DNA of 43,043 nucleotides. Origin: Pseudonocardiales bacterium. Its GTDB lineage: Bacteria; Actinomycetota; Actinomycetes; Mycobacteriales; Jatrophihabitantaceae. The stretch covers positions 1 through 43,043 of the forward strand of contig JAVEET010000344.1 of the NCBI GenBank assembly GCA_030840295.1. The letters are read 5' to 3'. Below the pieces are notes generated by a model, which saw only the letters and a list, made by a program, of their open reading frames with translations, had not been told where the DNA came from and searched no databases. Each line of letters opens with the position of its first letter. Within the stretch, counting starts at the first letter, position 1. Below, one piece after another: positions 10,372-40,497 of the stretch. The translations under genes were made by a program, and so were the position numbers.

Positions 10372-10375
10372 GGTG

Positions 10376-11374: not shown

Positions 11375-11417
11375 CCGGTGACCCTGCGGGGTCGCGCGTC
11401 GGCCACCGGCATTCTCG

Positions 11418-12035: not shown

Positions 12036-12312
12036 GCCAGCACCCCTGCTCCACGCGCACGCCCGGAACCGGCTTACCTGCTGAGCCGCCTCGACGCTAT
12101 CCCCCGATTCCGCAGCTGGCAAGCCACCATGCCGCCCGCCACCAACAATGACAACAGTCCAACCGTGGACGACTGCGCACCGCGTGGCTGAAACTCCGAG
12201 CACCCAGTAGCGTTCAGCTGTACTCGAGCAGGTGCCGGCGGACAGTGCGAAGCGCCGGTCACCGGCTGATGTCGTTGCACCAACGCGCTTTACTCAAACC
12301 GAGGGCGGCTTG

Positions 12313-19832: not shown

Positions 19833-22373
19833 ATGATGTTGCGGAGATGCTTCACGGCGACGGCCTGCGCCGCGGCGGTGATCGCCGCGATCGGATTCGC
19901 GATTCCCCCCGCCACCGCAGCGGTCAGCACGATCCTCGTCGGAACCGCGAACTGTTCTGACCTCGGGACGGGCACGGCGGCGCAGCCGTACTGCACCCTG
20001 GCCAAGGCCGCATCGAAGGCGACCAGCGGCCAGACCGTCGAGGTTGCCGCCGGTACGTACGCCGGCGGCGCGACCGTGGCGAACTCCGGCGTGGCCGGCG
20101 CACCCATCACCTTCAAACCGGCTGCCGGGGCAGCCGTGACGGTGAGCGGCGGCACGAACGGCTTCCGGATCAACGCCAAGAGCTACGTGACCGTCCAGGG
20201 CTTCTCGATAACCGGGACCAGCTCATACGGGATCGCCGTGCTGGATTCCAACAACATCACCCTGAGCGGGAATGTCGTCACCCACGCCGGAGACGTCAAC
20301 GCGGTGCCGCCGCTGATCGCCTACGGCATATACCTGAGCGGCACCACCAACTCCCTCGTCTCGGGCAACCGGGCCGACAGCAACAGCCACTCCGGGATCT
20401 TCGTCGGCGCCGGAACGGCAAACGTCACAGTCCGGGGCAATGAAGCCAGCTTGAACGCCTCGCTCGCGGCGGGTCCGCCCGCGGTCGGACGGCAGGCCAC
20501 CGGCATCACCGTGATCGGTCCCGGCAACTCGATCGTCGGCAACGTGGTGCACGACAACGAGGACAGCGGCATTCAGGTCTACCCGGTAAGCAACACCCCG
20601 ACCGGCGGTATCACCCGCGGGGGGGACAACACCCTGGTCGCCGGCAACGTCTCCTACAACAACGGCGACCACGGCATCGACAACCGGGATGTCAACGGTG
20701 GCCGCATCATCGGCAACACCATCTACCGCAACTGCACGTCCGGTATCAACATCGAGGGCGTCTCCCTCGGCTACCTGGTCGAGAACAACATCGCGGTCGA
20801 CAATGCGGTCCTTCCCGCCTACCAGGGCATCGCGTGCACCCGTCGCACCGGAAACATCGGAGTCTGGGACAGCTCGACCGCAACCGTCGACTTCAATCTC
20901 GTCCAGTTGAGCACAGCGGGCAACCTGTACGTCTATCACGGGGTCAGCTACAGCTCGATTTCCGCGCTGCATGCCGCAACCGGCCAGGAATCCCACGGGC
21001 TGCAAGCCAATCCGAAATTCACCGACGCCGCCGGGTGGAACTTGGCCCTCGCTGCCGGCTCGCCGGCCATCGATTCAGCCGACTCCGCCGCGAGCGGGCA
21101 GCCCGGCAGCGACGTGCTCGGCCATACCCGCATCGACGATCCGGCTACCGACCCCAACAGTGGGTCCGGCCCCCGCAGCTTCGATGACCGGGGTGCCTAC
21201 GAATTCTCCCCCACGGTGGCCGCCCCACCCGGCGGTTCGCTGCACCCGGTGCTGCCGGCCCGGATCCTCGACACCAGAAGCGGAAACGGCGCTGTGCGGG
21301 GGGCGGTGCCGGCTGGTGCCACCCGGGTTCTGCAGGTCAGCGGGCGGGGCGGCGTGCCGACAAATGACGTGATCGCGGTCGTCATGAACGTCACCGTCAC
21401 CGCACCGCGAGGTTCAGGTTATGTAACCGTCTATCCGAGCGGGGCCACGCCGCCCGCCTCGTCCAACCTGAACTTCGTGGCCGGCCAGACCGTGCCGAAC
21501 CTGGTCACGGTGGCGCTCGGACTCGGGGGCCAGATCACTCTGCGCAATGGCTCGAGCGGCACCGTGCAGCTGATAGCCGACGTGTCAGGGTGGTTCGGCA
21601 CTCCGGCCACCTCCGCCGGCCCCAGCGGCCGGTACAACGCCACCGGCCCGTTCCGGCTACTCGACACCCGCGCCTCCAAGCCCATCGCCGGCGGCCAGAC
21701 GGTCGAACTGCAGGTCACCGGACGATCCGGCAACGCTGCATCCGTGCCCGCAACCGGCGTCTCCGCCGTGGCCCTCAACGTCACCGTGACCGCTCCAACG
21801 ACCGGCGGCTACGTCACGGTGTTTCCCAGCGGAGTGAGCCTGCCCAACACCTCAACGCTCAACTACGTCCCGAAACTGACCAGGGCCAACCGCACCATCG
21901 TCGGCGTCGGCATCGGCGGCAAGGTGAGCATCTTCAACTCCAGCGGTGCGACCCAGGTGATCATCGACGTCATGGGCTGGTTCACCGACACCTCCTCCGG
22001 TGGTACGGGAGCAACGTTCGTCCCGCTCGCGACGCCACAACGCCTGCTGGACAGTCGGACTGGTAGCCCGTGGACGGCAGCCTCGGCCCGCACCTTCGCG
22101 GTGGCCGGAAGTGCCGGTGTGGCGGCGATGACGTCGGCCTTCCCGCCGAAGGCGGTACTCGCCAACGTCACGGTGACCCGCCCGTCCACCTCGGGCTATC
22201 TGACCGTGTACCCGGGCGGAACGCGGCCAGGCACCAGTGACCTGAACTGGACGAAGGGGCAGACCGTCCCCAACCTGACGGTTGCCGGCCTCTCTCCTGG
22301 CGGCGCGCTGACGATCTTCAACAGCAACGGACAGGTCGACGTCATTCTGGATGTCTTCGGCTGGTTCGCCTGA
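19833..22373 (+). CDS. Secreted right-handed beta-helix protein with three C-terminal LDTR/DVxGWF repeats
   Basis: 846 residues; GGGGGAT precedes ATG 19833. A signal peptide (ATACAAAVIAAIGFAIPPATAA) is followed by a parallel beta-helix (residues ~30-460) rich in N-turns such as NNITLSGNVV, VHDNEDSGIQV and NNGDHGIDN, ending PRSFDDRGAYEF. The C-terminal part holds three ~125-residue copies starting near 470, 600 and 729. Each runs from a LDTR/LDSR motif through GYVTVYPSG and TVPNL to DVxGWF, a repeat common in actinobacterial exported proteins. The helix domain is closely similar to that of the gene at 40498. Such helices bind or cleave polysaccharide, and its position before the polysaccharide operon suits a surface role. 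No catalytic residues can be assigned with confidence. Confidence 0.85.
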   Translation: MMLRRCFTATACAAAVIAAIGFAIPPATAAVSTILVGTANCSDLGTGTAAQPYCTLAKAASKATSGQTVEVAAGTYAGGATVANSGVAGAPITFKPAAGAAVTVSGGTNGFRINAKSYVTVQGFSITGTSSYGIAVLDSNNITLSGNVVTHAGDVNAVPPLIAYGIYLSGTTNSLVSGNRADSNSHSGIFVGAGTANVTVRGNEASLNASLAAGPPAVGRQATGITVIGPGNSIVGNVVHDNEDSGIQVYPVSNTPTGGITRGGDNTLVAGNVSYNNGDHGIDNRDVNGGRIIGNTIYRNCTSGINIEGVSLGYLVENNIAVDNAVLPAYQGIACTRRTGNIGVWDSSTATVDFNLVQLSTAGNLYVYHGVSYSSISALHAATGQESHGLQANPKFTDAAGWNLALAAGSPAIDSADSAASGQPGSDVLGHTRIDDPATDPNSGSGPRSFDDRGAYEFSPTVAAPPGGSLHPVLPARILDTRSGNGAVRGAVPAGATRVLQVSGRGGVPTNDVIAVVMNVTVTAPRGSGYVTVYPSGATPPASSNLNFVAGQTVPNLVTVALGLGGQITLRNGSSGTVQLIADVSGWFGTPATSAGPSGRYNATGPFRLLDTRASKPIAGGQTVELQVTGRSGNAASVPATGVSAVALNVTVTAPTTGGYVTVFPSGVSLPNTSTLNYVPKLTRANRTIVGVGIGGKVSIFNSSGATQVIIDVMGWFTDTSSGGTGATFVPLATPQRLLDSRTGSPWTAASARTFAVAGSAGVAAMTSAFPPKAVLANVTVTRPSTSGYLTVYPGGTRPGTSDLNWTKGQTVPNLTVAGLSPGGALTIFNSNGQVDVILDVFGWFA

Positions 22374-23268: not shown

Positions 23269-23349
23269 GCCGCCGCTCGATCCCACAAGTCGTTCTGCTT
23301 TCTAACGTCGGTGCCATCAACCAATGCGACACATGGGGGGTGGCCAACG

Positions 23350-24660
23350 GTGGAGATCGATGAGGTCATCGCACGGCTCACACGGCGATACTGGCCGGTG
23401 CTACTGGTGGCCATACTGGCGCCGATCGTGACGGTCGGGATGCTGGTCTCACGACAGCCCAAGGTCTACACCGCCCAGGCGCGGGTCGCTGTGTCGGCCG
23501 AAGTACCAAAGTCCGCAGCCGAGGCCTCCGGACTGGTCAGTCAGGTCGCTGCTCTGGCCACCAGCCGTGATCTGGTATCCCGAGCGCTCAGTACGGCCGG
23601 CGTCACCACCCGGGACGCCGATGCGGTGGCCACGAACGATGTTGCGGTGACCGGTAACGGGACATCGGCCGTGGTGACCATCGCGGTGACCGATCGCGAC
23701 GCCGCGGCGTCGGCCAGGCTGGCCGCGGCACTTGCCGACGAGGTCAACACGGCGTTCAACGATTCCCGTATCGGCAACCTGCCATCGGTCATCGCAGGTG
23801 TCGACAGGCAGCTCACTGATCTCGCGACCCGTCGCGCACCCATCGCGGCGGCCCTGTCCAGGAGCGCCGCCGGGCGCACGCCTGATCCGAAATTGCCGTT
23901 GCTGCAGAGCCAGCTCGCCGGTGTCGACACCCTCATCGCCGACCTGTCCTCCGACCGGAACCGGCTCTCCGAGCAGCTGGCCGCAGCCGGAAACGCCTCG
24001 GTCGTGGCCACCCCGCAGACTCCGAACCAGCCCAACTCCAATGGCATGGTCCCCAAGGTTGCCCTCAGCGGAATTCTGGGCCTGGTCCTCGGCCTGATCA
24101 TCTCCGCGGTAGCCGAGACGGTCCGCCCGACGGTGTCCGGGGCCGCGCGCCTCGGACGCCTGCTGACAGTGCCGTTGCTGGGTCGTCTCGATGCCAACCC
24201 GGCGGTCCTGCACGCCCTCGGACGACGCGTCCGGTTGGCCGCGCGCAAGGCGGCTGTCACTCAGGTCGTGGTCACCAGTGCCTCCGGCAAGCCGGTGCCG
24301 GAATGGGTGGTCGACCGGTTGGGCTCCGTGGTCCTGCAGCCGCTACAAGGATTCGGCCAGGCTACGGTGGCGTCCGAGATGGTGTTAAGCGCGGTGGCGC
24401 CGCCGAACGGAAGCCATCCACCGGCCCTTGCCACAACGGAGGGACACCCCGAGCAGCCCTCCCAGACCGGACAGATCTACGAGGTCGGAACCCTCGACGA
24501 GCTGAGCACAGCAGGGGAATCGGCACCGATCGGCGTCCTGGTCCTCGCCGGCGGGACCGTGAACGCCAACGCCGTGCACGAGATCCGGGATTTGCTCAGC
24601 GCCTCTGGCTGGCCGCTGCTCGGTGTCGTGGCACATCCTCGGTTCGGACGCCGGCCGTGA
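23350..24660 (+). CDS. Wzz/YveK-type polysaccharide chain-length or co-polymerase protein
   Basis: About 436 residues from GTG 23350, chosen because GGGGGTGG lies 6-7 nt upstream; the ATG at 23311 is in frame but poorly placed. The layout is that of a Wzz-domain protein: a first membrane helix (YWPVLLVAILAPIVTVGMLV), a long extracytoplasmic region with coiled-coil character, and a second helix near 240 (ALSGILGLVLGLIISAVAE). The ~190-residue cytosolic tail lacks a Walker A motif, so it is not a fused BY-kinase, and its partner kinase is not seen. Wzz proteins set polymer length with Wzy. First gene of the operon, overlapping the next by GTGA. Confidence 0.8.
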   Translation: MEIDEVIARLTRRYWPVLLVAILAPIVTVGMLVSRQPKVYTAQARVAVSAEVPKSAAEASGLVSQVAALATSRDLVSRALSTAGVTTRDADAVATNDVAVTGNGTSAVVTIAVTDRDAAASARLAAALADEVNTAFNDSRIGNLPSVIAGVDRQLTDLATRRAPIAAALSRSAAGRTPDPKLPLLQSQLAGVDTLIADLSSDRNRLSEQLAAAGNASVVATPQTPNQPNSNGMVPKVALSGILGLVLGLIISAVAETVRPTVSGAARLGRLLTVPLLGRLDANPAVLHALGRRVRLAARKAAVTQVVVTSASGKPVPEWVVDRLGSVVLQPLQGFGQATVASEMVLSAVAPPNGSHPPALATTEGHPEQPSQTGQIYEVGTLDELSTAGESAPIGVLVLAGGTVNANAVHEIRDLLSASGWPLLGVVAHPRFGRRP

Positions 24661-25784
24661 CCGCGACGATTACCGGTGTCCCTTTCGCGCAGCCGTCCTA
24701 CGCACCGGGCGCCCGCGAGGCAGCGCTGCGCGTCATAGACTCCGGTTGGACGACGACCGGCGCCGAATGTGCCGCCTTCGAAGAGGAATTCGCCGCCTAT
24801 CTCGGCGTGGACCACGTCGTCGTGATGTCCTCCTGCACCCAAGCACTCGAGCTCAGCCTGCGTGCCCTACGACTGCCGCCGGGTGCGGCCGTGCTCACCC
24901 CCAGCCTCACGTTCTGTGGGGCCGTGGCCGCCATCGTGCATGCGGGCCTGCGGCCGGTGCTGGTGGATGTCGACGAAGACTCCCTGGTGCCGGACGAACG
25001 AGCCGTGGCGGCGACGGTCCGGCGCGTCGGCAAAGTGCACGCGATGGTCGTCTGTCACCTCGGCGGTTACCCCGTCGACATAAACCGGCTGGCCGGGGCC
25101 GCGGGACTGTCCCGTCACCGAATCGTCGAGGACGCCGCCCATGGGCCCGGTGGCGGCATCAACGGACGGGACTCCCAGGCTGCTTGTTTCAGCTTCTACG
25201 CGACGAAGAATTTGCCGATCGGCGAAGGCGGCGCAGTCGCGACCTGCGATCCCGAACTGGACGCCTGGCTTCGCTCGGCACGCCTGCACGGGATGACCAA
25301 GGATGCCTGGCGCAGGTACCTGCCTGGTGGCAGCTGGCGTTACGACGTAGCCAGCATCGGATTCAAGGCCAATCTGACCGATCTGCAAGCCGCGATCGGC
25401 CGCGCCCAGCTTCAGGCCGTGGATGCGTGGCAGCAGCGGAAAACCCTGCTGGCGGCGCGTTATGACGCCGAGTTGGGACACCTGCTCCGGTTACCGAGCC
25501 GTAGTGAGGGCCACGCCTGGCACCTCTACCAGGTGCGGGTGCCCGGGCGAGATGAGCTCGCGCGTGAACTCGCCGCGGCCGGCATCGGCAACTCCGTCCA
25601 TTTCATACCCGTACATCAGCTCACCGCCTTCGCCGCGCTGCTGGGCGCGGACGAATGTCAAGCCTGTCCGGTGACCGACCGGGTAGCCGACGAGCTGCTG
25701 TCCCTTCCGCTCTATCCGTCGCTTTCCGACGGTCAGCAATCTGCCGTCATCGACGCAGTCGTCGCCGGCCTTCGGAGGTCCTGA
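24657..25784 (+). CDS. DegT/DnrJ/EryC1-family sugar aminotransferase
   Basis: About 375 residues. GTG 24657 overlaps the previous stop as GTGA, and similarity starts there (ITGVPFAQPSYAPGAREAALRVIDSGWTTTG). PLP-enzyme landmarks are present: SSCTQALELSLRAL, the phosphate/Asp region IVEDAAHGPGGG, and the Schiff-base Lys in SFYATKNLPIGEGGA, then SIGFKANLTDLQAAIGRAQL. The family transaminates keto-sugar nucleotides to amino sugars. Immediately downstream is a CapD-like dehydratase that could supply the 4-keto sugar. Together they predict an amino-deoxy sugar in the polymer. Confidence 0.93.
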   Translation: MTATITGVPFAQPSYAPGAREAALRVIDSGWTTTGAECAAFEEEFAAYLGVDHVVVMSSCTQALELSLRALRLPPGAAVLTPSLTFCGAVAAIVHAGLRPVLVDVDEDSLVPDERAVAATVRRVGKVHAMVVCHLGGYPVDINRLAGAAGLSRHRIVEDAAHGPGGGINGRDSQAACFSFYATKNLPIGEGGAVATCDPELDAWLRSARLHGMTKDAWRRYLPGGSWRYDVASIGFKANLTDLQAAIGRAQLQAVDAWQQRKTLLAARYDAELGHLLRLPSRSEGHAWHLYQVRVPGRDELARELAAAGIGNSVHFIPVHQLTAFAALLGADECQACPVTDRVADELLSLPLYPSLSDGQQSAVIDAVVAGLRRS

Positions 25785-27271
25785 TGATAGGTATCAACCG
25801 ACCCAATCCCCATCGTCAGTTGCGTGGCAGTGGCCTGCCGACCTTGATCATCGGCGCCGGCCAGGCCGGGCGAGCGGTTGTTCGCGCCATCCGCGGCAGC
25901 CATGGTTACGGACTGAATCCGATTGGGTTCCTCGATGACGATCCGAGGATCCGGCGGGCGGTCGGACTGCCCGTCCTCGGCCGGACCGGCCAGCTGTCGT
26001 CGGTCGCTCAGCGCTGCGGCGCCCGGGCTGCTCTGATTGCGATGCCCTCAATGCCGCAGGCCCGCATCGCCGAGCTGATCGAGGAGGCCGCCTGCGCCGG
26101 GCTCATGGTGCGCTACCTCCCCTCGTTCCTGTCCGCGGTCGAGCGGGACATGCGGCTGTCCGACCTGCGCGGGCTACGGGTCGACCACCTGCTCGGACGC
26201 GACGAGATCCACATCGCCTCGGACCGCGCCTGCAATCTCATCCATGGGCGGCGGGTGCTGGTCACGGGCGCCGGCGGATCCATCGGCTCCGAACTGTGTC
26301 GTCAGATCTCCCGCTTCGAACCGGCCGCGCTCTTCATGCTCGATTACGATGAATCGAACCTGCATACCCTGCAGCTCGAACTCACCGGCGCCGGCCTGCT
26401 CGACTCGGACGAGATCATCGTGGCCAACATCCGGGACCGGCATCGAGTTCACCAGGTGTTCTCCCAGACCCGGCCTGACCTGGTGTTCCACGCGGCCGCG
26501 CACAAACACCTGCCCTTGCTGGAACGCCACCCGTGCGAGGGCGTGAAGACCAACGTACAGGGCACCAAACACCTGGTGGACGCCGCCATCCGTTACGGCG
26601 TCGAACGGTTCGTCCTTATCTCAACGGACAAAGCGGCCGATCCATCCTCTGTGCTGGGAGCGACCAAGCGGCTGGCCGAGATGGTGGTCCAGGACAACGC
26701 CGGCGGTCCTACTCGCATGGCCTCTGTCCGGTTCGGCAACGTGCTCGGCTCCCGCGGATCGCTGCTGGCCGTACTGGCCAAGCAGATCGTCGCCGACCGC
26801 AGCGTGACGGTCACCCACCCGGACGTGACGCGGTTCTTCATGACGGTCGAGGAAGCGGTCTCGCTCGTTCTGGAGGCGGCCACCATGTCGGAACTGGCCG
26901 AAACCTTCGTCCTGGACATGGGTGAAGCGGTGTCCATCGTGGACCTCGTCTACAAGTACGCCGAGGAGCTTCACCTCTCCGACGTGACGATCAGGTTCAC
27001 CGGCCTGCGCCCGGGTGAGAAGCTCAACGAAAAGGTCTTCTCCGACGCCGAGCTCCGGCTGAAGACGGCACACCCGAAGATCTGGGCCACTCGCGGAGCC
27101 GAGCTGCCGCCGGGCCTGACAGAGCGACTGGAGCAGTTGTTCGCCTCAGCCGAGATCAACGACGCCGAGGGCAGCCGGCAGCTGCTCCGCGAACTACTTC
27201 CGGAGTACCTGCCGACCACGTATCCGCGGACGCCGGCCAGTGTCGGCGCGCCGTACCCGGACGGGTTCTGA
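25784..27271 (+). CDS. CapD/FlaA1-like nucleotide-sugar 4,6-dehydratase, soluble form
   Basis: About 495 residues. ATG 25784 overlaps the previous stop (TGATG) with GGAGG ahead of it. An N-terminal Rossmann-like domain (LIIGAGQAGRAVVRAI, IGFLDDDP) of the type that follows the membrane part in CapD is retained, but the usual four N-terminal membrane helices are absent. The catalytic short-chain-dehydrogenase domain starts near 160 with VTGAGGSIGSELCRQI, followed by HAAAHKHLPLLE, ISTDKAADPSSVLGATKRLAE, RFGNVLGSRGS and TGLRPGEKLNE. Family members convert UDP-GlcNAc or similar to 4-keto-6-deoxy sugars. It pairs with the aminotransferase upstream. Confidence 0.92.
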   Translation: MIGINRPNPHRQLRGSGLPTLIIGAGQAGRAVVRAIRGSHGYGLNPIGFLDDDPRIRRAVGLPVLGRTGQLSSVAQRCGARAALIAMPSMPQARIAELIEEAACAGLMVRYLPSFLSAVERDMRLSDLRGLRVDHLLGRDEIHIASDRACNLIHGRRVLVTGAGGSIGSELCRQISRFEPAALFMLDYDESNLHTLQLELTGAGLLDSDEIIVANIRDRHRVHQVFSQTRPDLVFHAAAHKHLPLLERHPCEGVKTNVQGTKHLVDAAIRYGVERFVLISTDKAADPSSVLGATKRLAEMVVQDNAGGPTRMASVRFGNVLGSRGSLLAVLAKQIVADRSVTVTHPDVTRFFMTVEEAVSLVLEAATMSELAETFVLDMGEAVSIVDLVYKYAEELHLSDVTIRFTGLRPGEKLNEKVFSDAELRLKTAHPKIWATRGAELPPGLTERLEQLFASAEINDAEGSRQLLRELLPEYLPTTYPRTPASVGAPYPDGF

Positions 27272-28251
27272 TGCCAAGCGGACAACTCACTACCGCCGGC
27301 GAAATCGTGGCTGTGCACAGCGAGGGCGCCAGAGCGCATCACCTGATCGAGCGTGCCGCCGGCGGCGGACTCGCACCATTGGGTTCCGAGCGGCCGACCG
27401 TCGTCCTCGAGCTACAACAGACCCGGGAGGCCTTCGCCACCAAGGGTCTTCGTCCGGTCACCCGTGGCACGTCCAGCGACGGTATGCGCACGGTGATCGG
27501 CAACGCCTGCGGGTCCGGATTCGACCTGCAGGCCGAGGTCACCGACGACCTGCTGCGGGTGGTCGCGCGATACCGGCCCCATCACCCGACGCGGGCGGCC
27601 AATACCGTGCTGGCCGGACGATTCGGTCTGCTGGCCGGCCAGACACTGCTGCACTACCCCGCCCTGTGGCGAGCGGGCTGGCGGGGACGCGTCCCTTTGC
27701 ACGCCGCGGTCTGCGCCACGGCCGGGAGGGTGGTGATGCTGGCCGGTCCCGGTGGCGTCGGCAAGTCGACCCTCATCGGCCGGGCCGCCCGCGACGGGGC
27801 AAGGACGACCGCGGACAACCTGTGCGTCGGCGACGGGGTCGAGTGCTTCGGACTGGCCGAGCCGTTGCGCCTGGACCCGACCGACCCATCGCAAGGCGGC
27901 CCGGCCCGGACCACGTCACACGGCCGGTCCGTCGCGACGTTACCCGGCCGGGTCAGCGGGCTGCTCCCGGATCTGGTGGTCATGCTCGAGCGTGGGCCGA
28001 CCAATGACATCGCCGAGGCCAAATCGGCCGACGCCGCGCGGGTGCTGGTCACCGGCACCTATGCCGCCGGCGAACTCCGCCGGTACTGGCAATTCGCGGC
28101 CACCATGGCGCTGGCCACCAACATCGGCTGCGCCCATCCGGCCGTCGATGCCGTCGCAGGCGCCTACGCCGATCGACTGCCCTGCCTGCGGGTCCGGGTC
28201 GGCGACGGCGAGCACGTGAGCTTCAGCCAGATCTGTGAGGGGAAATTATGA
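27271..28251 (+). CDS. HPr kinase-like P-loop kinase
   Basis: 326 residues; ATG 27271 overlaps the preceding stop (TGATG). The N-terminal ~120 residues are of no recognised family. The C-terminal half is a P-loop domain of HprK type with LHAAVCATAGRVVMLAGPGGVGKSTL near 159-168, then TTADNLCVGDG in the place of the second metal-binding segment. The HPr-type K/S-phosphorylation signature is not evident, and no HPr is encoded here. Such HprK-related kinases occur in polysaccharide and peptide-modification clusters, where substrates may be sugars or peptides. Its substrate here is unknown. Other P-loop nucleotide-dependent functions are possible. Confidence 0.7.
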   Translation: MPSGQLTTAGEIVAVHSEGARAHHLIERAAGGGLAPLGSERPTVVLELQQTREAFATKGLRPVTRGTSSDGMRTVIGNACGSGFDLQAEVTDDLLRVVARYRPHHPTRAANTVLAGRFGLLAGQTLLHYPALWRAGWRGRVPLHAAVCATAGRVVMLAGPGGVGKSTLIGRAARDGARTTADNLCVGDGVECFGLAEPLRLDPTDPSQGGPARTTSHGRSVATLPGRVSGLLPDLVVMLERGPTNDIAEAKSADAARVLVTGTYAAGELRRYWQFAATMALATNIGCAHPAVDAVAGAYADRLPCLRVRVGDGEHVSFSQICEGKL

Positions 28252-29525
28252 GCCACAAGCTGCGGGTGGCCACCGTCATCACCCGGATGACTGCCGGTGC
28301 CGGCGGTGTCGCCTTGCGCGGCGCGATGGGCCTGGACCCTTGCGACTACGAGGTGACCATCATCGCCGGTGGCACCGGATTCGACGGCCGGCGCTCGGAC
28401 CGGGGCTCGCCCGACATCCTGTTCGGAGCGGACGCGGTGGCCGGCGCCCCTCCCGGAGACCTGCTCGCGGCGGCAGCCGCGGCCGGCCTGCAGGTGGCAC
28501 GGGTGCCGCGGCTGGTCTCGCCGATCTCGCCTCGGCTGGATCATCAGGCACTGCGGACGCTGACCGACTTCATGGCCCACAACGGATTCGACGTCGTCCA
28601 CACCCACAGCGCGAAGGCCGGCGCACTGGGCAGAATCGCAGCCCACCGTACCGGCGTACCGAGAATCGTCCATACTTACCACGGCTTTCCCTTCCACGAC
28701 CAGCAGTCGAGATTGCGGCGGGCCAGCTACATCCGGCTGGAGCGCTGGCTCGGCCAACGGACGGATGCGGTCCTCGCGGTGGGCGCTGCCGTGGCTGCCG
28801 ACACCGCCCGCCTGGGGCTCATTTCTCCGGAGCGGATATGCACGATCTCACCCGCGGTCGATCCGCCGACCGGCACTCCGGGTACGGCGGGGCGCGCCGC
28901 CGCCAGGCGCAGGCTGAACGTGGCTCCCGGCGTCCGCGTGGTCGGAACCGTAGGTCGGGTCGACTACCAGAAGGCGCCGGAACAATGGGTGGACGCGCTG
29001 GCCCAGATCGCCAGTGACGACGTCTGGGGCGTCTGGATCGGTGACGGTCCGCTGCGCGAGAAGTTGCTGTCTCGGGTTCGCCGGCGGGGTTTGACCGATC
29101 GCTTCCTCTTTCTCGGCCATCGCCCGGACGCCACCGCGATCATGCCGGCCTTCGACGTATTCATGATGGCCAGTCGATACGAGGGACTGCCGTGCGTGAT
29201 CGCCGAGGCCATGCAGGCCCACGTCCCTGTCGTCGCCACCGCGGTCAACGCGGTGCAGGACCTGGTCATCCCGGGCGTAACGGGTCTGCTCGTCCCTGCC
29301 AATGAACCGCCGCTACTGGCCCGATCGGCGGCATTCCTGCTGGACAACCCCAGCACCGCGCGCCGGATGGCCGACGCCGCATTCAACAGCCTCGGAGACC
29401 GGTTCAGTGCCCATGCGCTGGGCGAACTACTGGACCAGACCTACCGCGCCGGATCAGTTCGGACCACGACCGCGGCCCGGCCCGAACCGCGTCCCCGAAG
29501 GAGCGTGCAATGGACCTCACTCTGA
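28248..29525 (+). CDS. GT4-type glycosyltransferase
   Basis: 425 residues, ATG 28248 overlapping the previous stop (ATGA). GT-B features: an N-terminal domain with RVATVITRMTAGAGGVALRGA and VVHTHSAKAGALGRIAA plus HTYHGFPFH, and a C-terminal domain with VVGTVGRVDYQKAPEQWVDAL, FLGHRPDATAIMPAFDVFMMASRYEGLPCVIAEAM, the EX7E-type glutamate region of GT4 enzymes. It should add a sugar from a nucleotide donor to the lipid-linked repeat unit at the inner membrane face. It overlaps the RtcB-like gene by 16 nt. Confidence 0.92.
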   Translation: MSHKLRVATVITRMTAGAGGVALRGAMGLDPCDYEVTIIAGGTGFDGRRSDRGSPDILFGADAVAGAPPGDLLAAAAAAGLQVARVPRLVSPISPRLDHQALRTLTDFMAHNGFDVVHTHSAKAGALGRIAAHRTGVPRIVHTYHGFPFHDQQSRLRRASYIRLERWLGQRTDAVLAVGAAVAADTARLGLISPERICTISPAVDPPTGTPGTAGRAAARRRLNVAPGVRVVGTVGRVDYQKAPEQWVDALAQIASDDVWGVWIGDGPLREKLLSRVRRRGLTDRFLFLGHRPDATAIMPAFDVFMMASRYEGLPCVIAEAMQAHVPVVATAVNAVQDLVIPGVTGLLVPANEPPLLARSAAFLLDNPSTARRMADAAFNSLGDRFSAHALGELLDQTYRAGSVRTTTAARPEPRPRRSVQWTSL

Positions 29526-30925
29526 TCTCCAGCAGCCAGGTGTTCGACAGCCCCGAGCTGCCCGCGAACCCCGACGTGCTGGCCGCCCTGCACGCCCGGG
29601 TCGCGGATGCCGATCTGGCAGCACCGCCGGTCGTCCTGCCGGATTTTCATCATAAGTCGAAAATGGAACTGCCGTCCTCGGTCGCCATCGCGACGCTCGG
29701 AACAGTCCGCCCGACCCTGACTTCGGCGAGTGTGAACTGCGGTATGGCGCTGCTTACCCTCGATACCGACCGGCCGAATGATCAAGCAGTGGCGGAGTTC
29801 TACCGCCGAGTGCGGGAGCGGTATCCGTACCCGACGAGGAATCACGGTGAGCTGAGCGCGGCCGAAGTGCGGCGAGCGGCCGTCGACGGCGCCCGGTTCG
29901 CGGGCGAGCGCTGGCAGGTGGATGCGGAGGAATTGCAACGCATCGAGGAGAACGGGCGCATCGACCTCGAGCGTTACGGCGGGGGCGACCGGCTCCTCAA
30001 GGAGCTGCCGAGCCTGCTGTTCCAACTGGCCCGGTTGCGCTTCGGAACCGTTGGCCCCTCGAACCACTTCATCGAACTGCAGGAGGTCGAGGAGATCCTC
30101 GACGAGCCAACCGCCACCGCGCTCGGCGTCAAACAGGGCCAGCTCACCCTGCAGTACCACGCCGGCGGTGGTGTGCTCACCGGCGAGATCGGCGCGTTGT
30201 TCGGCCGCCGCATGCACTATCCGCGGCAGCTACGGATGGCGATGGCCGTACAGAAGCCGCTGTACCACCTGGCTTCGGCCCGGTCGGTCCACGAGCTACG
30301 CGAGCGGCTTTCGCTCTATTTCACCAGCAGCTGCCCACCGGTCGCGCGCCATAGCGCCGAAGGCGAACGGCTCATGCTGGCCAACGCGGCCGCGATGAAC
30401 TACGGCTTTGCCTTCCGAGTGGCCACGTATGCCGCATTGCGAACCATCGCCGCGCAGGTGTTCGGCGCGAACACCCAGCTTGTGGTCGACTCCCCGCACA
30501 ACTCCATCTACGAGGAACCCACAGCGGCCGGGATGGCGGTGGTGCACCGACACAATGCCTGCCGCGCCTACCCGGCCGAGATGATGCCCGCAGGCACGGT
30601 ATTCGGTCGCACCGGCCAGGCCGTGCTGCTCCCGGGGACCCACCGGACCTCGTCCTATCTGGCGGTCGCCGGTCCGGATTCGGCGCGCAGCCTGTATTCG
30701 GCTTGCCACGGGGCCGGCACGGTTATCGACGATTTCCTCGCCCGCGGCTTGTCGGCAAAGCACCGTGATGGACACAGCACCCGACGGTTCCGGTACTCCG
30801 ATGCTGCACCGCTGCAGTCCGATCACCTCGACGACAACGGTGTCAACGCCGCGCTGGGCGTGCTCCAGCGGCATGGCCTGGTCCGGCCCGTTGCCAGGAT
30901 GCGGCCCTTTGCCGTCCTTAATTAG
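29510..30925 (+). CDS. Divergent RtcB-like RNA-ligase-family protein
   Basis: 471 residues; GAAGGAG is 6 nt before ATG 29510. RtcB landmarks run in order: VVLPDFHH (41-48), SASVNCGM (72-79), GPSNHFIELQEV (182-193), LQYHAGGG (214-221), ANAAAMNYGFAFR (291-303), DSPHNSIYEE (327-336), VVHRHNACRAYP (344-355), GQAVLLPGTHRTSSY and SACHGAGT (397-404). Compared with my memory of RtcB, the metal-binding Cys and His positions and the guanylylated His (H400) are kept. The Asp of DxxCG is Ser 74, the Arg after the HxGSR motif is Gly, CHGAGR ends in Thr, and the terminal Lys of VVKG is replaced by Asn 471. Canonical RtcB joins 3'-phosphate and 5'-OH RNA ends using GTP and Mn. In this locus its job is unknown and altered or lost ligase activity is likely. 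Confidence 0.85.
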   Translation: MDLTLISSSQVFDSPELPANPDVLAALHARVADADLAAPPVVLPDFHHKSKMELPSSVAIATLGTVRPTLTSASVNCGMALLTLDTDRPNDQAVAEFYRRVRERYPYPTRNHGELSAAEVRRAAVDGARFAGERWQVDAEELQRIEENGRIDLERYGGGDRLLKELPSLLFQLARLRFGTVGPSNHFIELQEVEEILDEPTATALGVKQGQLTLQYHAGGGVLTGEIGALFGRRMHYPRQLRMAMAVQKPLYHLASARSVHELRERLSLYFTSSCPPVARHSAEGERLMLANAAAMNYGFAFRVATYAALRTIAAQVFGANTQLVVDSPHNSIYEEPTAAGMAVVHRHNACRAYPAEMMPAGTVFGRTGQAVLLPGTHRTSSYLAVAGPDSARSLYSACHGAGTVIDDFLARGLSAKHRDGHSTRRFRYSDAAPLQSDHLDDNGVNAALGVLQRHGLVRPVARMRPFAVLN

Positions 30926-30956
30926 CCTTAGCCACGATGGGGGAACGGCGACCGTG

Positions 30957-31397
30957 ATGAGCGATCGACTGAACAGCTCGGCCGACACTGCCGGCACACC
31001 GCCCTGGTCGGACCCGGCGGCCCGCTGGCTGCTGCTCGCGCCGACCGGCACGGTGGGAGTGCGGGTCGAGGATCGGCACACCGCCATCCGGAGGCTGCGA
31101 GGGCTGCCCGCGGGCAGTCCGGTTGCCATTGTCGGGTCCCGCACGATCCGAACTATCGCACGGCAAAGTGAGGTCGATGCCGGCCAGACCTTTCTCGTAC
31201 TACCCGGCCTCGATCTGCCCGTAGCGGTGGCGGCGCCCGGCCCCGGCCTGAAATGGGTGGCCAACTCGGTGCTCACCGTGCCCAGCGGACGGTACCGAGG
31301 TCACCTGGTCGCGACCTGGGCCGTGCACCTCGCCCGCCGGGCGCCCTGGTTGCTGCGGGCGGTCGGTGGCCGCGTGTTGCTCGGGAGTCGTCGATGA
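30957..31397 (+). CDS. Unknown protein between RtcB-like and kinase genes
   Basis: About 146 residues; GGGGGA precedes GTG 30954/ATG 30957, about 30 nt after the RtcB-like stop, the one non-overlapping junction in the operon. The sequence is mixed alpha/beta with GTVGVRVEDRHTAIRRLRGLPAGSPVAIVGSRTIRTIARQSEVD and a final basic-hydrophobic stretch (ATWAVHLARRAPWLLRAVGGRVLL) that could touch the membrane. I do not recognise a family. It overlaps the APH-fold kinase gene by 4 nt, so the two products may work together. Confidence 0.75.
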   Translation: MSDRLNSSADTAGTPPWSDPAARWLLLAPTGTVGVRVEDRHTAIRRLRGLPAGSPVAIVGSRTIRTIARQSEVDAGQTFLVLPGLDLPVAVAAPGPGLKWVANSVLTVPSGRYRGHLVATWAVHLARRAPWLLRAVGGRVLLGSRR

Positions 31398-32686
31398 CCG
31401 CGGCACGCCGGCCGGCCAAGGCCACACCGGCTCAGCCGGTTAAACGCATCCCGGCTCAGCCCGCCAAACGCACCGCCGCTCAGCCCGCCAAACGCATCCC
31501 GGCTCAGCCGGCCAAACGCATCCCGGCTCAGCCCGCCAAGCGCACCCCGGCTCAGCCCGCCAAGCGCACCGCCGCTCAGGCAGCGGCAGCGGCAGCGGCA
31601 GCGGCAGCGGCAGCGGTTGAGCAGACTCCGGATCCGCAGCAGCAATCGCGGCCGTCGGCTGACTTAACCAGCCGGCGCCGGACCACTCTCGGCGGTATGC
31701 CGCTGACGACGCTGGCGCAAGCCCTCGCGCGGCCGGGGTTACATCCGGTGCTCCTGGCCGGCTCACGCGATCCGAATGCCAAGTTGACCGTGATGCTGAT
31801 CGACCGTTGGGGGCCGGCCTTCGCGGTGAAGGTGGCCACCACCCGGTTGGCGGCCGACGTCGTCCAGACCGAGGGAGAACTGCTCTGCGCCTTGCACGCC
31901 CGGGGGCTGGGCACGCTCGGCGCGACGGTGCCACGGCCGGTGGGATTCCTCGATGCGGACGGGCTGCCGGCCCTGGTCACGGGTGGGCTGCTGGGCACCC
32001 CGATGGCGGTCAGCTATCACCAGTGGCGCCACACCGCACGGCGACGCCGGGTGCGTGCGGACTTCGTCGCCGCCGGAGGCTGGTTGACCAGCTTCCAACG
32101 CCAGACCGCCGGCCCCCGGCAAGGTGTCATGCTGCTGGATTCAGCGCTCACTCGGATCGAGGAACGCTTTGGTGCGCAGGCAGAACTGCGGCGGCGGCTG
32201 CGCCCGATAGCGGATCTGCTCGCCAGCCAGGCCACCCCCCGGACCGCCGTGCACGGTGACTACTGGTTCGGAAATCTGCTTTTCGATCGCGGTGCAGTAG
32301 TCGGTGTCGTCGATTGGGAAGCCAGCGCCTTGTCCGGCGAGCCGTTGCGCGACGTGGCCAGATTCGCGGTCAGCTATTCGCTCTACCTCGACCGGCACGT
32401 ACGACCAGGGTCGAAGGTTCCGCACCATGCCGGCCTTCGTGCCGACAGCTGGGGCGCCGGATTGCTCTATGCCGTCAACGGATCCGGGTGGTATCCGGAT
32501 CTGGTCCTGGGATTCTGCCGTGAGGCATTGACCAACCTGGGAGCCGATGGGGCCTGCGCCCGTGCCCTGCTGGTCGCCGGCATCGCCGATGTGGCCGCCA
32601 CCGCCGACCATCCCGAATTCGCTCGGGCCCACCTCGATCTGCTGAGCCGCGTGCACCTGGCGCCGCCGCCAGCCCGCCGGCCATGA
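31394..32686 (+). CDS. APH/choline-kinase-fold phosphotransferase with histone-H1-like N-terminal tail
   Basis: 430 residues; ATG 31394 overlaps the previous stop (ATGA). Residues 8-63 are seven 8-residue repeats of the form AKR(T/I)(P/A)AQP, followed by 12 alanines. That tail looks like the basic Lys/Pro/Ala tails of histone H1 and actinobacterial HupB. The rest is an aminoglycoside-phosphotransferase-like kinase: AFAVKVATTRL (nucleotide Lys), Brenner motif VHGDYWFGNLLF near 286 with catalytic Asp and Asn, and VVDWEAS near 306 with metal Asp. This fold phosphorylates small alcohols, sugars or lipids. Here a sugar or lipid-linked intermediate is a reasonable guess; resistance is unlikely given the operon. 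No Dxx missing residue is evident. Confidence 0.8.
   Translation: MTAARRPAKATPAQPVKRIPAQPAKRTAAQPAKRIPAQPAKRIPAQPAKRTPAQPAKRTAAQAAAAAAAAAAAAVEQTPDPQQQSRPSADLTSRRRTTLGGMPLTTLAQALARPGLHPVLLAGSRDPNAKLTVMLIDRWGPAFAVKVATTRLAADVVQTEGELLCALHARGLGTLGATVPRPVGFLDADGLPALVTGGLLGTPMAVSYHQWRHTARRRRVRADFVAAGGWLTSFQRQTAGPRQGVMLLDSALTRIEERFGAQAELRRRLRPIADLLASQATPRTAVHGDYWFGNLLFDRGAVVGVVDWEASALSGEPLRDVARFAVSYSLYLDRHVRPGSKVPHHAGLRADSWGAGLLYAVNGSGWYPDLVLGFCREALTNLGADGACARALLVAGIADVAATADHPEFARAHLDLLSRVHLAPPPARRP
31415..31615. repeat. 24-bp coding tandem repeats followed by a hexamer array
   Basis: Seven 24-bp units begin at 31415, 31439, 31463, 31487, 31511, 31535 and 31559, each coding AKR(T/I)(P/A)AQP or a close variant. 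From 31581 to 31615 the sequence is a GCAGCG hexamer repeat coding alanine. Both parts keep frame when copies are gained or lost, so tail length is likely to vary among strains. Confidence 0.93.
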
Positions 32687-33969
32687 CCGTGGTCGCTGTA
32701 CCAGCTGCACTCCAAGCAGCGGTGCCCTCGACGCAGGAGACCGGTTTCTCGATACGCCGTCAACTCACTTATGGCGTCATCGTGTTCGCGATCTCGTCGC
32801 TGCCACTGCTGCGCCCGGCCGGACCCGGGAATACCGGACTGGCCGACGTGGGGCTGGTCATTGCGGTGCTGATCACCGCCCTCTGGCTATCGGGTCATGG
32901 CCACCGGGTGTACCTGCCCTACCTGTGGCCCGTGCTGATCACCATCGCCGCCGGCTCCCTGGCCGCCCTGCACGCCAAGGGAGACCCGCTGGCCCTGCTT
33001 CAGGACGCGTTCGTCTTCTCATGGTCCATGGCAGTGGTGAATCTGGCGCGCGATCCGCGATCGCTACGGGTACTCGTCCGGGCCTGGGCCTTCAGCGGCG
33101 TGATCTGGGCCAGCCTGCTGATCGTCGGCGTCTCGATCGGACTCCCCTGGCTGGCCGGTACGTCCGCTCGGGATGGCAGCCGAGCTTCCTTCACGCTGGG
33201 AGATCCCAACCTGGCGGCGAGTTACTTCCTGTGCGCGTTGCTGGTGCTGCGCGCCTGCCAGCAACCTCGGCGGCGGTCACGGCGCTATCTCTGTTGCACC
33301 ATCCTGGTCGTAGCACTCTGCTTGACCCTGTCCAACGGCGGCATACTCACCTTGATTCTGGCCACCGAGCTCGGCTGGATCTTCGGTATCGGCCGCCGGC
33401 GCGGTCTGGCGCCCGCGGTAGCAGTGGCATGTGTACTCATCGCCGTCAGCACCGTCGGTGCCTTGACGATCGACCTGACCGCCCTTTCGGACCGGGCCCA
33501 ACAGTCGACGCCGTTGCTTCGCGATTCGATAGGCCGCCAGGGTGAAAGCGGCGGCAGCCGGAGCACGCTGATCAAGGACGAGCTGCACATCTGGTTCACC
33601 AGCGACACGGTGCTCGGTATCGGGCCAGGTGAGACGAAGCTACGACTGGCCGGGGGGAATTCTTCCTACTCCAAGGAGGCCCACAACGACTATCTCGCGT
33701 CGCTGGTGGAACGGGGCGTGCTCGGGGCGCTCGGGCTGCTGGCCCTGATCGTGGCCCTCGCCGTGAACGCCCGCCGCATCGCGCGGCCCGGTGCGCTACC
33801 GCCGGCCTACGTCGCGGTGGTTCCTCGACCCGAACTGCTCGGAGCCCTGCTCATCGCGATCGGTGCGTCCGCGAGCCTGTACGAGGTGTTGCACTTCCGC
33901 CATATCTGGGCGGTGTTCGGGCTGATCGCGGTGCTGGCAATCGCGGCACGCCGCGGTCATCAGCCGTGA
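32683..33969 (+). CDS. O-antigen polymerase/ligase-family membrane protein (Wzy-like)
   Basis: 428 residues; ATG 32683 overlaps the previous stop (ATGA). About ten to eleven hydrophobic segments span the protein. A large external loop near residues 255-330 contains SRSTLIKDELHIWF and KEAHNDYLASLVERGVLG, the typical Wzy/WaaL Pfam motif with the conserved His. The family polymerises lipid-linked repeat units at the outer face of the membrane. With Wzx, Wzz and the initiating transferase in the operon a Wzx/Wzy-dependent route is well supported. Confidence 0.88.
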   Translation: MTVVAVPAALQAAVPSTQETGFSIRRQLTYGVIVFAISSLPLLRPAGPGNTGLADVGLVIAVLITALWLSGHGHRVYLPYLWPVLITIAAGSLAALHAKGDPLALLQDAFVFSWSMAVVNLARDPRSLRVLVRAWAFSGVIWASLLIVGVSIGLPWLAGTSARDGSRASFTLGDPNLAASYFLCALLVLRACQQPRRRSRRYLCCTILVVALCLTLSNGGILTLILATELGWIFGIGRRRGLAPAVAVACVLIAVSTVGALTIDLTALSDRAQQSTPLLRDSIGRQGESGGSRSTLIKDELHIWFTSDTVLGIGPGETKLRLAGGNSSYSKEAHNDYLASLVERGVLGALGLLALIVALAVNARRIARPGALPPAYVAVVPRPELLGALLIAIGASASLYEVLHFRHIWAVFGLIAVLAIAARRGHQP

Positions 33970-35237
33970 CCGCCGAACTGGTGGCCGGCGGAGCGCCGGC
34001 CAGGGCAGGTCTGCGTAAGGTGTTCGCCGGTAACGTGGCGGCGCGGCTTGCCGCATTGCTGGCTCTTGCCGTCGGCACGGTTCTGGTGGCCAGAGTCGGG
34101 GGTCCGGATCTGGTCGGCGGATTCACCTTGTTGCGGGTGCTTCCCGGTCTGGCTGGCGTGCTGGCGGCGGCCGGCCTGCCGGGCGCGGTGCCGTTCTTCC
34201 TGTCCGCACAAGGGGATAACCCAGCCCTGCGGTCGACCTTGGTGACCCTGACCGGGCTCGGGGCGCTGGTCGGTTGCCTGGGATGGCTGGTGTTCGCCCC
34301 GCTACTCCATGCCACCTTCTTCCAGACCTGGTGGGTCGGAATCACCTTCGGCTGTGCCGGTGCGGTGTTCAGCCAGCTGTTCGTCGCGGTGGGGAAGGCC
34401 ATGCTGCAGGGCATCGGGGACTTCCGCGGCGCGAACGTCGCGATCGTGGCCGAGGAGGTCAGCTACCTTCCCGTGTATCTGGCCCTCATCGCGTTCGGGC
34501 GGGGCATGGGCCCGGTCCTGATAGCGCTGATCCTGGCCGACCTGTTGGTGGCGATCGGGATCGCCGAGCGACTTCGCCGCCGGGAATTCTTCCGGGGTTG
34601 GGCGCGACCGGATGCCAAACTGGCCCGGAGCATCTGCAGCTACGGCTCGCGCGGGCAACTGGGCGGTGTGATGTCGTTGATCAACCTGCGGCTGGACGTG
34701 GCCGTCCTCGGGGCCATGGCTGGTCCGGCCGTCCTCGGTGTGTATGCGATCGCCAGCAAGTACGCGGAACTGCTCCGGCTACCGGGTCTCGCCGTGACCT
34801 ACGTCCTCTATCCGGTCTTCAGCCGGCACAGTCGGCAAGCCGTGACTCAGCGGACCAAGTCCCTGCTGCTGCCGGCCCTGGGCCTCACCGCGGGTGCGGC
34901 GATTCCGCTGGCCGCCGGCGCGGGCATCATTCTGCCTGCGTTGTATGGCAAATCTTTCGACGGGGCGATCGGCCCGACCTGGATCCTGCTCGCAGGTCTG
35001 CTCGGCGAGGGCGTCACCGGCCTGATCACCGCCTACCTGTACGGCATCGGGCGCCCCGGACTCAACTCGCTGGCGATCGGTATCGCGGTGCTGGTCACCG
35101 TGGTCGGCGACCTCCTGCTGATCCGGCCGTTCGGCGTGACCGGAGCCGCGGTCGCATCGGCCGCGGCGTACCTTGCGACCACGGCTACGCTGCTGATCCT
35201 CTTCCGACATCAGCTACGGCCGAGGGAGGAATCATGA
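33966..35237 (+). CDS. Wzx-like polysaccharide flippase (MATE/PST superfamily)
   Basis: 423 residues; GTG 33966 overlaps the previous stop (GTGA). About twelve hydrophobic segments, starting with RKVFAGNVAARLAALLALAVGTVLVARVGGPDLVGGFTLLRV. LRLDVAVLGAMAGPAVLGVYAIASKYAELLRLPG and ALYGKSFDGAIGPTWILLAG are typical of polysaccharide biosynthesis flippases. It should move undecaprenyl-linked repeat units across the membrane for Wzy. It overlaps the lipoprotein gene by 4 nt. Confidence 0.9.
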   Translation: MTAELVAGGAPARAGLRKVFAGNVAARLAALLALAVGTVLVARVGGPDLVGGFTLLRVLPGLAGVLAAAGLPGAVPFFLSAQGDNPALRSTLVTLTGLGALVGCLGWLVFAPLLHATFFQTWWVGITFGCAGAVFSQLFVAVGKAMLQGIGDFRGANVAIVAEEVSYLPVYLALIAFGRGMGPVLIALILADLLVAIGIAERLRRREFFRGWARPDAKLARSICSYGSRGQLGGVMSLINLRLDVAVLGAMAGPAVLGVYAIASKYAELLRLPGLAVTYVLYPVFSRHSRQAVTQRTKSLLLPALGLTAGAAIPLAAGAGIILPALYGKSFDGAIGPTWILLAGLLGEGVTGLITAYLYGIGRPGLNSLAIGIAVLVTVVGDLLLIRPFGVTGAAVASAAAYLATTATLLILFRHQLRPREES

Positions 35238-36367
35238 GTCTCGACTCAGGACGCCCCCCGATCACGTCGATGGCGCCGCACTGCACCGGCACCGTCAGCA
35301 GAGCCCTCACCGGCACCGTCAGCAAGGCCCTCGCTGGAACCCTGACGACGGTGTTGGTCGTGCTGATGGCCGCCGGTTGTCATTCCTCGACGCCGCTGGC
35401 GCCCACCTCGCAAGCGGCGACGACCCGGCCCCCGACCGGAACATCGTCCAAGGTGGTACTACCGCCGGCCACCGGTGACTACGCCGACGCGATCAAGATC
35501 GCCGTGCGGCACGGACTGCAGGTTTGGCTGGAATCCGATCTGGTGAAGCGGTGGCAGGCGGGACCGGGTTCCTTCGAGTCTGCCCTGCGCCAGCTCGGCT
35601 CGCTCGCCGCCATCCCGGGGGTGCGCGGGATCAAGATCGCCGACGAAATGGGATATCACGACGGCCTGTCCAGCGCGGCCCGGATCAAGGCTTTCCTCAA
35701 CGCGGCCTATGACGGCCTGCAGCGCTATGCCCCCGGGAGACCGCTGCTGGTGGACATGATCGTGCCGAGCCTCGGTTGCCTGCCGGACCAGCAACCGCCG
35801 TTGCTCTGGTCGACGGAGTGCCAGGTCAAGGCCGACGGCCAGTATCCCCAGTTGACGCTGGCGAGCGTGACCAGCTACCTGCGAATGCGCAGGCTCTCGG
35901 TACTGGATGTGTCCACGGGCCTGCTCCCGGACTCTAGCTACATCGGCTGGGGTGCCACCCGGGACATTGCTCAGACCAAGGCCTGGGCCAAGCTCAAGGC
36001 GCTGGGCTGGGCATCACTGGTGACCTTGCACGCGCGTAAAGCCCTGGCGCATCCCGGTGACTACGCGAAATCCGAGTCCGAGGCCCAAGCAGATCTGCAC
36101 ACCTGGGTCGACCTGCCGCTGTCGGACGGTGCGCAGGCCATAGATGTCTGGACCTGGCGCCAGGGCTATCAGGGAGCCGTCAACCGGCTGCTCGATCCGG
36201 GTTTGAAGCCGAATGCACTCTGGACGGGCCTACAAGCCCGGCGCGCGGCGGGGGCGACCTTGTTCACTCATCTGTCACCGCACTCGCTCGAGGTGAGCCT
36301 GGACGCTGATCTGGCCATGCTGGCGAAGGTCTTTTCGGCCGTCTTCGTAGCGGCGGGAACGGGGTGA
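35234..36367 (+). CDS. Lipoprotein with glycosidase-like (TIM-barrel-like) domain, unknown family
   Basis: About 377 residues; ATG 35234 has GGAGGAATC upstream and overlaps the flippase stop. The N-terminus has a hydrophobic core TTVLVVLMAAGC with a lipobox-like Cys, then a Ser/Thr/Pro linker. The body has alternating helix/strand character with VRGIKIADEMGYHDG, RPLLVDMIVPSLG, LDVSTGLLPDSSYIGWGAT, WASLVTLHARKA and AIDVWTWRQGYQG. That pattern suggests a TIM-barrel glycoside hydrolase with Asp/Glu at strand ends, but I recognise no GH family. Placement just before the initiating transferase in the operon implies trimming, releasing or modifying the polymer outside the cell. Confidence 0.75.
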   Translation: MSLDSGRPPITSMAPHCTGTVSRALTGTVSKALAGTLTTVLVVLMAAGCHSSTPLAPTSQAATTRPPTGTSSKVVLPPATGDYADAIKIAVRHGLQVWLESDLVKRWQAGPGSFESALRQLGSLAAIPGVRGIKIADEMGYHDGLSSAARIKAFLNAAYDGLQRYAPGRPLLVDMIVPSLGCLPDQQPPLLWSTECQVKADGQYPQLTLASVTSYLRMRRLSVLDVSTGLLPDSSYIGWGATRDIAQTKAWAKLKALGWASLVTLHARKALAHPGDYAKSESEAQADLHTWVDLPLSDGAQAIDVWTWRQGYQGAVNRLLDPGLKPNALWTGLQARRAAGATLFTHLSPHSLEVSLDADLAMLAKVFSAVFVAAGTG

Positions 36368-37020
36368 CGGCCGTGGCATCGATCTCCCCTAGTCCGGCCC
36401 GGCGAGCTCTGGACGTGCTACTGGCGGGCTCAACGCTCGCCGTCTGCGGTGCTCCCCTGTTGCTGCTGATGTTGGCAGTCCGGCTGACCAGCCGTGGCCC
36501 GTCGCTGTTCAGTCAGCGGCGGGTTGGCCAGGGCGGCCGGCCGTTTCGGATGTACAAGCTGCGGACGATGCGGACCGGCCTGGCCGGGCCGGACGTGACG
36601 GCCACCGGCGATGCCCGGATAACCGGGTTGGGACGAGTGTTACGTCGTACCTCACTGGACGAGCTACCCCAGCTGTGGAACGTGTTGCGCGGTGAGATGA
36701 CCTTGGTCGGGCCGCGACCGGAAACCCTGGGCCTGGCCGAGCGTTATCCGCCGGAGTGCCGGTGGATCTTCGACCACCGGCCAGGGCTCACCGGCCCGAC
36801 CCAGGTCCGGATGCGGGATTCCTCGGTGCTGCCGGCCGGCCCCGTCGACGTGGAGCACTACCTGAAGGTGCTGGTACCGGCTCGGACGGCGGTCGATGCA
36901 CTGTTCCTGCAGCGTCCTACGCTCGGCGCGACCTTGAGCGTGCTGGCTGACACGATTCGTCATCTGTCGGGTCGGCAGGTACGAGCCGCCGCACCGACAG
37001 CGGCCCGCACCGAGCATTGA
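36364..37020 (+). CDS. Initiating sugar phosphate transferase (WcaJ/PssY-type polyprenyl glycosyl-1-phosphate transferase)
   Basis: 218 residues; GTG 36364 overlaps the previous stop (GTGA). It is the compact catalytic form: one membrane re-entrant helix (LLAGSTLAVCGAPLLLLMLAV), then RRVGQGGRPFRMYKLRTM, the catalytic DE in LDELPQLWNVLRGEMTLVGPRPE, and RPGLTGPTQV. The enzyme loads the first sugar phosphate onto undecaprenyl phosphate. It is the last gene of the operon and its final ~100 nt are antisense to the end of the MBL-Rieske gene. Confidence 0.93.
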   Translation: MTAVASISPSPARRALDVLLAGSTLAVCGAPLLLLMLAVRLTSRGPSLFSQRRVGQGGRPFRMYKLRTMRTGLAGPDVTATGDARITGLGRVLRRTSLDELPQLWNVLRGEMTLVGPRPETLGLAERYPPECRWIFDHRPGLTGPTQVRMRDSSVLPAGPVDVEHYLKVLVPARTAVDALFLQRPTLGATLSVLADTIRHLSGRQVRAAAPTAARTEH

Positions 37021-40378: not shown

Positions 40379-40497
40379 CGGCCATGATCTGGTGGCCGGT
40401 TCGAGGAATGCCCACACTGGGACGGGGTTTCCCGGGCGGGCGGAGCCACCGCCGCTTCGATGTCACCGGACCCGTCCAGTACGAAGCGGGGTCAGTC

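Follow-up and report, generated by a model that had tools for sequence, protein, structure and literature searches.

A divergent RtcB-fold protein of actinobacterial polysaccharide loci, possibly a histidine-based nucleotidyltransferase

RtcB ligases and related activities

RtcB is known for ligating RNA during repair and splicing, and the contributions of several active-site residues have been established for the P. horikoshii and human enzymes. In the former, the D95A variant has lost ligation and its guanylylation of the RNA 3'-phosphate is rescued by Archease; D65A and H404A are not rescued, and K480A is active with Archease and, with ATP, exceeds the wild-type rate by about a third (PMC3973293). 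In human RTCB, D119A gives weak guanylylation and no ligation, strong guanylylation needs all of the metal ligands including Asp119, and Lys375 (equivalent to P. horikoshii Lys351) and Asn354 contact the leaving phosphate derived from GTP (PMC10944509). Members of the family can also stop at capping: as cited in PMC10630183, E. coli RtcB caps DNA to give DNA3'pp5'G, and M. xanthus RtcB3 caps a 5'-phosphate.

We found no publication that places RtcB in polysaccharide synthesis, which, with partial coverage of the literature, is weak evidence of absence. A paper on P. aeruginosa RtcB has the T6SS/T3SS switch as its subject. A branch of the family tied to polysaccharides would show that His-GMP chemistry, or at least the fold, has been recruited to a different polymer. 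Here we describe a candidate for such a branch, starting from the RtcB-like protein (RtcBL) encoded in a 43,043-nt stretch of DNA from a Pseudonocardiales bacterium (the window).

The RtcBL gene and its product

RtcBL is a protein of 471 aa encoded at 29510–30925 on the forward strand, and was assigned by its match to PF01139, by structural similarity and by clade support. The ORF begins with ATG, with GGAG a few bases upstream, and overlaps the preceding GT4 glycosyltransferase gene by 16 bp, which makes coupling of the two in translation plausible. Such coupling had been claimed in a preliminary description of the sequence; the overlap is compatible with it at this locus, but it is not universal, the gene following a dehydratase gene in Nocardioidaceae and Kribbella. 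The RtcB scaffold motifs reported there are all present in the translation and in order (PDFHH, VNCGM, SNHFIELQE, YHAGGG, NYGFAFR, PHNSIYEE and CHGAGT), and the C terminus reads AVLN.

Profile search and structure prediction, both of which had been suggested as checks, agree with the family assignment. Residues 40–470 match PF01139 at E = 1.3e-45 (156.8 bits; cut-off 27), and RtcB chains of the PDB, including 1uc2, are matched at E = 1e-23; scores against the NCBIfam RtcB equivalogs lie below their curated cut-offs (73 bits against 407 for NF007153 and 45.4 against 271.8 for TIGR03073). An AlphaFold model built from a 41-sequence alignment (pLDDT 87.9, pTM 0.90) gave Z scores of 33.6–39.1 in structural comparison with ten RtcB entries and 4.1 with the best unrelated structure, and an earlier model, based solely on 17 clade members, agreed on the fold with lower confidence. 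As modelled, RtcBL has an RtcB fold, the match being far above chance. The fold is shared over nearly the whole length with the ligases P. horikoshii PH1602, T. thermophilus TTHA1785 and human RTCB, with ∼21–26% identity in structural alignments.

A polysaccharide operon

The gene belongs to a run that extends in one direction, on the forward strand, from 23311 to 37020, and most of its members overlap by a few bases. It opens with a Wzz-like chain-length protein (23311–24660; PF02706, E = 4e-4; homologues in relatives), a DegT/DnrJ/EryC1/StrS sugar aminotransferase (24657–25784, the start being inferred from the sequence within an ORF that opens at 24303; PF01041, E = 4e-87) and a FlaA1/PseB-like nucleotide-sugar 4,6-dehydratase (ORF 25655–27271, of which the true start may be later; PF02719, E = 2e-96). 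There follow an HprK-like P-loop kinase (27271–28251; TIGR04249 and TIGR04352 at E = 1e-6 and 2e-5, below their cut-offs), the GT4 glycosyltransferase (28248–29525; PF13692, E = 7e-28) and RtcBL itself. Downstream lie a small protein of 146 aa (30957–31397; no Pfam match, homologues in relatives), an APH-family kinase (31394–32686; PF01636, E = 1.8e-15, and conservation), a Wzy-type polymerase or O-antigen ligase-like protein (32683–33969; PF04932, E = 7.5e-12), a Wzx-type flippase (33966–35237; PF01943, E = 6.7e-11), a lipoprotein-like or secreted protein (35234–36367, start inferred; no Pfam match, homologues in relatives) and an initiating sugar-phosphate transferase (36364–37020; PF02397, E = 7e-45).

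The catalytic set of the APH kinase is conserved (K146, E160, HGD at 287–289, N294 and D307). In relative L116 the kinase and the small protein share one open frame (9782–12640). The small protein was considered as a candidate Archease and rejected, given this joined frame, the lack of a Pfam match and the absence of Archease from the source genome. Pfam and profile scans of the operon genes matched no known nucleotidyltransferase family, Rfam and tRNA scans of the window matched no RNA gene, and promoter and terminator scans showed no excess over shuffles.

A distinct and rare clade

Nineteen complete orthologues were found, all in Actinomycetota, with hosts in Pseudonocardiales, Dactylosporangium, Nonomuraea, Kribbella, Nocardioides/Marmoricola and other members of the phylum. 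The scans covered Actinomycetota, and the clade may extend beyond it. The resulting 20 complete members were placed in a tree with 32 further RtcBs, a number of them encoded in the same genomes, and a single branch with a support of 100/100 and a length of 3.0 changes/site separates the 20 from the rest. Carriers of RtcBL are rare, with four in a phylum-wide sample of 396 genomes and two among the nine genomes of the source organism's own genus. No tblastn match at 1e-40 was found in PLSDB, and spread by plasmids was rejected on this basis.

Comparison of the source locus with a close relative (L004) gave a dN/dS of 0.087, and RtcBL is under purifying selection. Its distances correlate with those of neighbor genes (r = 0.57–0.97), which common descent of the hosts could also explain. 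Another RtcB, its gene divided between the ends of two contigs, is encoded in the source genome and has all key residues, and RtcBs with all key residues occur in several other carriers. RtcBL forms a divergent subfamily within an established fold, and a change of function is plausible for it.

The active site

Residues are given in P. horikoshii numbering, in which the guanylylated His404 corresponds to His400 of RtcBL. Across all 52 sequences compared, the 20 clade members and the 32 other RtcBs, Asp65, Cys98, His203, Phe204, Glu206, His234, His329, Ser385 and His404 are invariant; in the clade, Asn202 is kept in 19 of the 20 and Asn330 in 18. The metal-A ligands (Cys98, His234 and His329) are intact in every member, and the metal-B set is incomplete, with Cys98 and His203 present and Asp95 replaced by Ser or Ala throughout. 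Equally uniform (20/20) are the changes of Ser237 and Arg238 to Gly, Lys351 to His or Tyr, Arg408 to Thr or Ser, and the C-terminal Lys480, a guanine contact, to Asn, His, Arg or Thr. RtcBL is like the RtcB ligases in its nucleophile, its metal-A ligands and most of its nucleotide pocket; the comparison proteins, by contrast, have Asp95, Ser237, Lys351, Arg408 and Lys480 without exception, and Arg238 in 31 of 32. The lone deviation, a Leu, is in L111 of Dactylosporangium fulvum, a very divergent protein and one of four RtcB-family genes in that genome.

Further features set the clade apart. The Gly-rich loop is altered from GxGxPIGG to KSKMELPSS, a clade-only insertion has invariant K249, P250 and H253, and Pro55, Ser57, Arg177, Gln215 and Asp441-Asp442 are constant, as is Lys49 in 18 members. 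The substitutions listed in the preliminary description are each real and clade-wide, although that list missed the replacement of Lys351, the changed loop and the insertion. Recovery of the lost residues by a better alignment was considered and rejected, the columns being anchored by the invariant NCG, HxG and HGAG and consistent in all 20 sequences; the alternative raised at the outset, a canonical RtcB with all residues recoverable, is not what the tree or the alignment gives.

Such an ordered replacement suggests a changed substrate more than it suggests decay. A pseudoenzyme that binds metal or nucleotide and gives the polysaccharide machinery a structural or sensing component would account for the loss of several ligation-essential residues from every member. 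This reading is the poorer fit, since the nucleophile and the metal-A ligands never vary, most of the nucleotide pocket is likewise unchanged, the substitutions are ordered and run through the whole clade, and dN/dS is about 0.09; we consider it unlikely. The intact metal ligands also accord with an enzyme in which a Cys/His metal center performs sugar or nucleotide-sugar chemistry (hydrolysis, epimerization or transfer) with no nucleotide of its own, and the clade constants Pro55, Ser57, Gln215, Lys249 and His253, with near-constant Lys49, hint at a remodeled pocket. An enzyme of this kind, however, would have no need for invariant Phe204, Glu206 and Ser385 or for the nucleophile His404, and we regard it as a fairly unlikely alternative.

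Linkage to polysaccharide synthesis

All 20 clade members sit in polysaccharide loci of one type, within which the position of the gene varies: it follows the GT4 gene in loci of the source type and the dehydratase gene in Nocardioidaceae and Kribbella, and stands beside Wzx in the two genomes of family f31. This variation argues for a functional link between RtcBL and polysaccharide synthesis and against a fixed pair of neighbors. A separate clade, every member of which lies in a polysaccharide locus and carries the same substitutions, is the pattern that had been named beforehand as support for a new function.

An APH-family kinase with the full catalytic set is present in every RtcBL locus long enough to show one. 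Gene co-occurrence was assessed for the HprK-like gene only, which was found in exactly three of 61 relatives, the same three that carry RtcBL; in the phylum sample it was found in two genomes, both of them carriers, and two further carriers had no match. Absence of RtcBL from the same operon of related genomes had been named as evidence against its significance. Most genomes of the genus do lack it, but they lack the HprK-like partner as well, so that this is not the absence that was meant. Archease (PF01951), missing from the source genome, is present in one of the 12 carrier genomes searched.

The linkage at every locus bears on the possibility that RtcBL continues to ligate or cap RNA, for example in repair under envelope stress, and that the place of its gene in the operon is incidental. 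The fold would allow this, and in Nocardioides sp. Soil774 (L103) the clade member is the sole RtcB-family gene found, with no canonical RtcB detected. Against it stand the constant association with polysaccharide genes, the loss of ligation-essential Asp95 from all 20 members and the residue-complete RtcBs encoded elsewhere in the source genome and several other carriers, and we judge it very improbable. A branch tied to polysaccharides would mean that some genes annotated as "RtcB family" are wrongly taken for RNA ligases.

A proposed role in nucleotidyl transfer

By analogy with the characterized enzymes, the clade appears to keep the residues for loading the histidine and for passing the nucleotide to a phosphate, without those for sealing. 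It is possible, at somewhat less than even odds, that part of the RtcB family has given up RNA as a substrate and now serves exopolysaccharide assembly as a histidine-based nucleotidyltransferase or else a phosphodiester synthase. More specifically, we propose that RtcBL is a nucleotidyltransferase that acts through a histidine-NMP on a phosphorylated sugar, with kinases of the operon as partners, and assign this reading a probability of a little under 0.4. RtcBL would then be a catalytically active enzyme that derives from an RtcB ligase and is dedicated to exopolysaccharide synthesis of the Wzx/Wzy type. With metal A assisting, His400 would attack an NTP and form His-NMP, from which the NMP would pass to a phosphate; the second half-reaction, sealing to a 5'-OH, would have been lost. 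The acceptor may be a sugar carrying a phosphate, or a comparable building block, produced by the APH-type kinase, the HprK-like kinase or both, and the product, X-PP-N, would resemble an NDP-sugar donor, perhaps for the GT4 enzyme, giving a pathway order of kinase, RtcBL and GT4.

Several lines of evidence are consistent with this proposal. His404, Asp65, the metal-A ligands, His203, Phe204, Glu206 and Ser385 are invariant in the clade, and Asp95, Arg238, Lys351, Arg408 and Lys480 are uniformly lost; P. horikoshii D95A still guanylylates with Archease and K480A, active with Archease, can use ATP (PMC3973293), human D119A guanylylates weakly without ligating (PMC10944509), and capping is the end point for some relatives, as cited in PMC10630183. 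The polysaccharide setting of all loci, the retained APH catalytic set, the restriction of the HprK-like gene to RtcBL carriers among the 61 relatives, the low dN/dS and the lack of a match to a nucleotidyltransferase family among the scanned operon genes point the same way. The proposal has two named weak points, namely the replacement in all 20 members of Lys351, whose human equivalent binds the leaving phosphate, and the absence from 11 of 12 carriers of Archease, which rescues D95A in vitro. Furthermore, the human enzyme needs Asp119 with the other metal ligands for strong guanylylation (PMC10944509), and housekeeping genes could supply UDP-sugars to the remaining enzymes of the operon, such that the pathway demands no extra nucleotidyltransferase.

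The two kinds of kinase in the operon could also serve a complete RtcB cycle on glycans, in which a sugar phosphate is converted to X-PP-G and attacked by a hydroxyl to give a phosphodiester-linked polymer, a phosphodiester also being the native RtcB product. The loss from every member of Asp95, essential for sealing in the P. horikoshii and human enzymes (PMC3973293, PMC10944509), makes such a ligase decidedly unlikely. Of the readings offered in the preliminary description, a repurposed nucleotidyl-transferring protein fits the site pattern best; that much stands, while the function itself is something that we infer.

From the residue pattern and context, we propose that RtcBL works like a sugar-phosphate nucleotidyltransferase without belonging to that family; MurU has a different nucleotidyltransferase fold. 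The likeness to the AmgK/MurU pair of peptidoglycan-sugar recycling (PMC5371407) is one of proposed logic only, a sugar kinase followed by a nucleotidyltransferase. The proposed half-reaction would be common to RtcBL and the capping enzymes M. xanthus RtcB3, likened here by its reported activity, and E. coli RtcB, in which, as cited in PMC10630183, an NMP is passed to a phosphate without sealing; unlike the proposed RtcBL, these act on nucleic acid. If the proposal is true, an RtcB-fold enzyme would take part in carbohydrate biosynthesis and provide a new chemical route to activated sugars, and the clade would offer naturally occurring variants in which guanylylation may be uncoupled from sealing.

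Adjoining genes

Adjoining the operon on the reverse strand (36917–38536) is a gene whose product has a metallo-beta-lactamase-like domain at its N terminus and a Rieske domain at its C terminus. The gene is kept in the loci of seven relatives, and the protein, from its resemblance to CMAH and NamH, is possibly an N-acetyl-sugar hydroxylase. The operon is flanked by genes for two related right-handed beta-helix proteins on the forward strand (19833–22373 and 40384–42789), the second with a PKD domain, and homologues of these are found at many of the loci in relatives.
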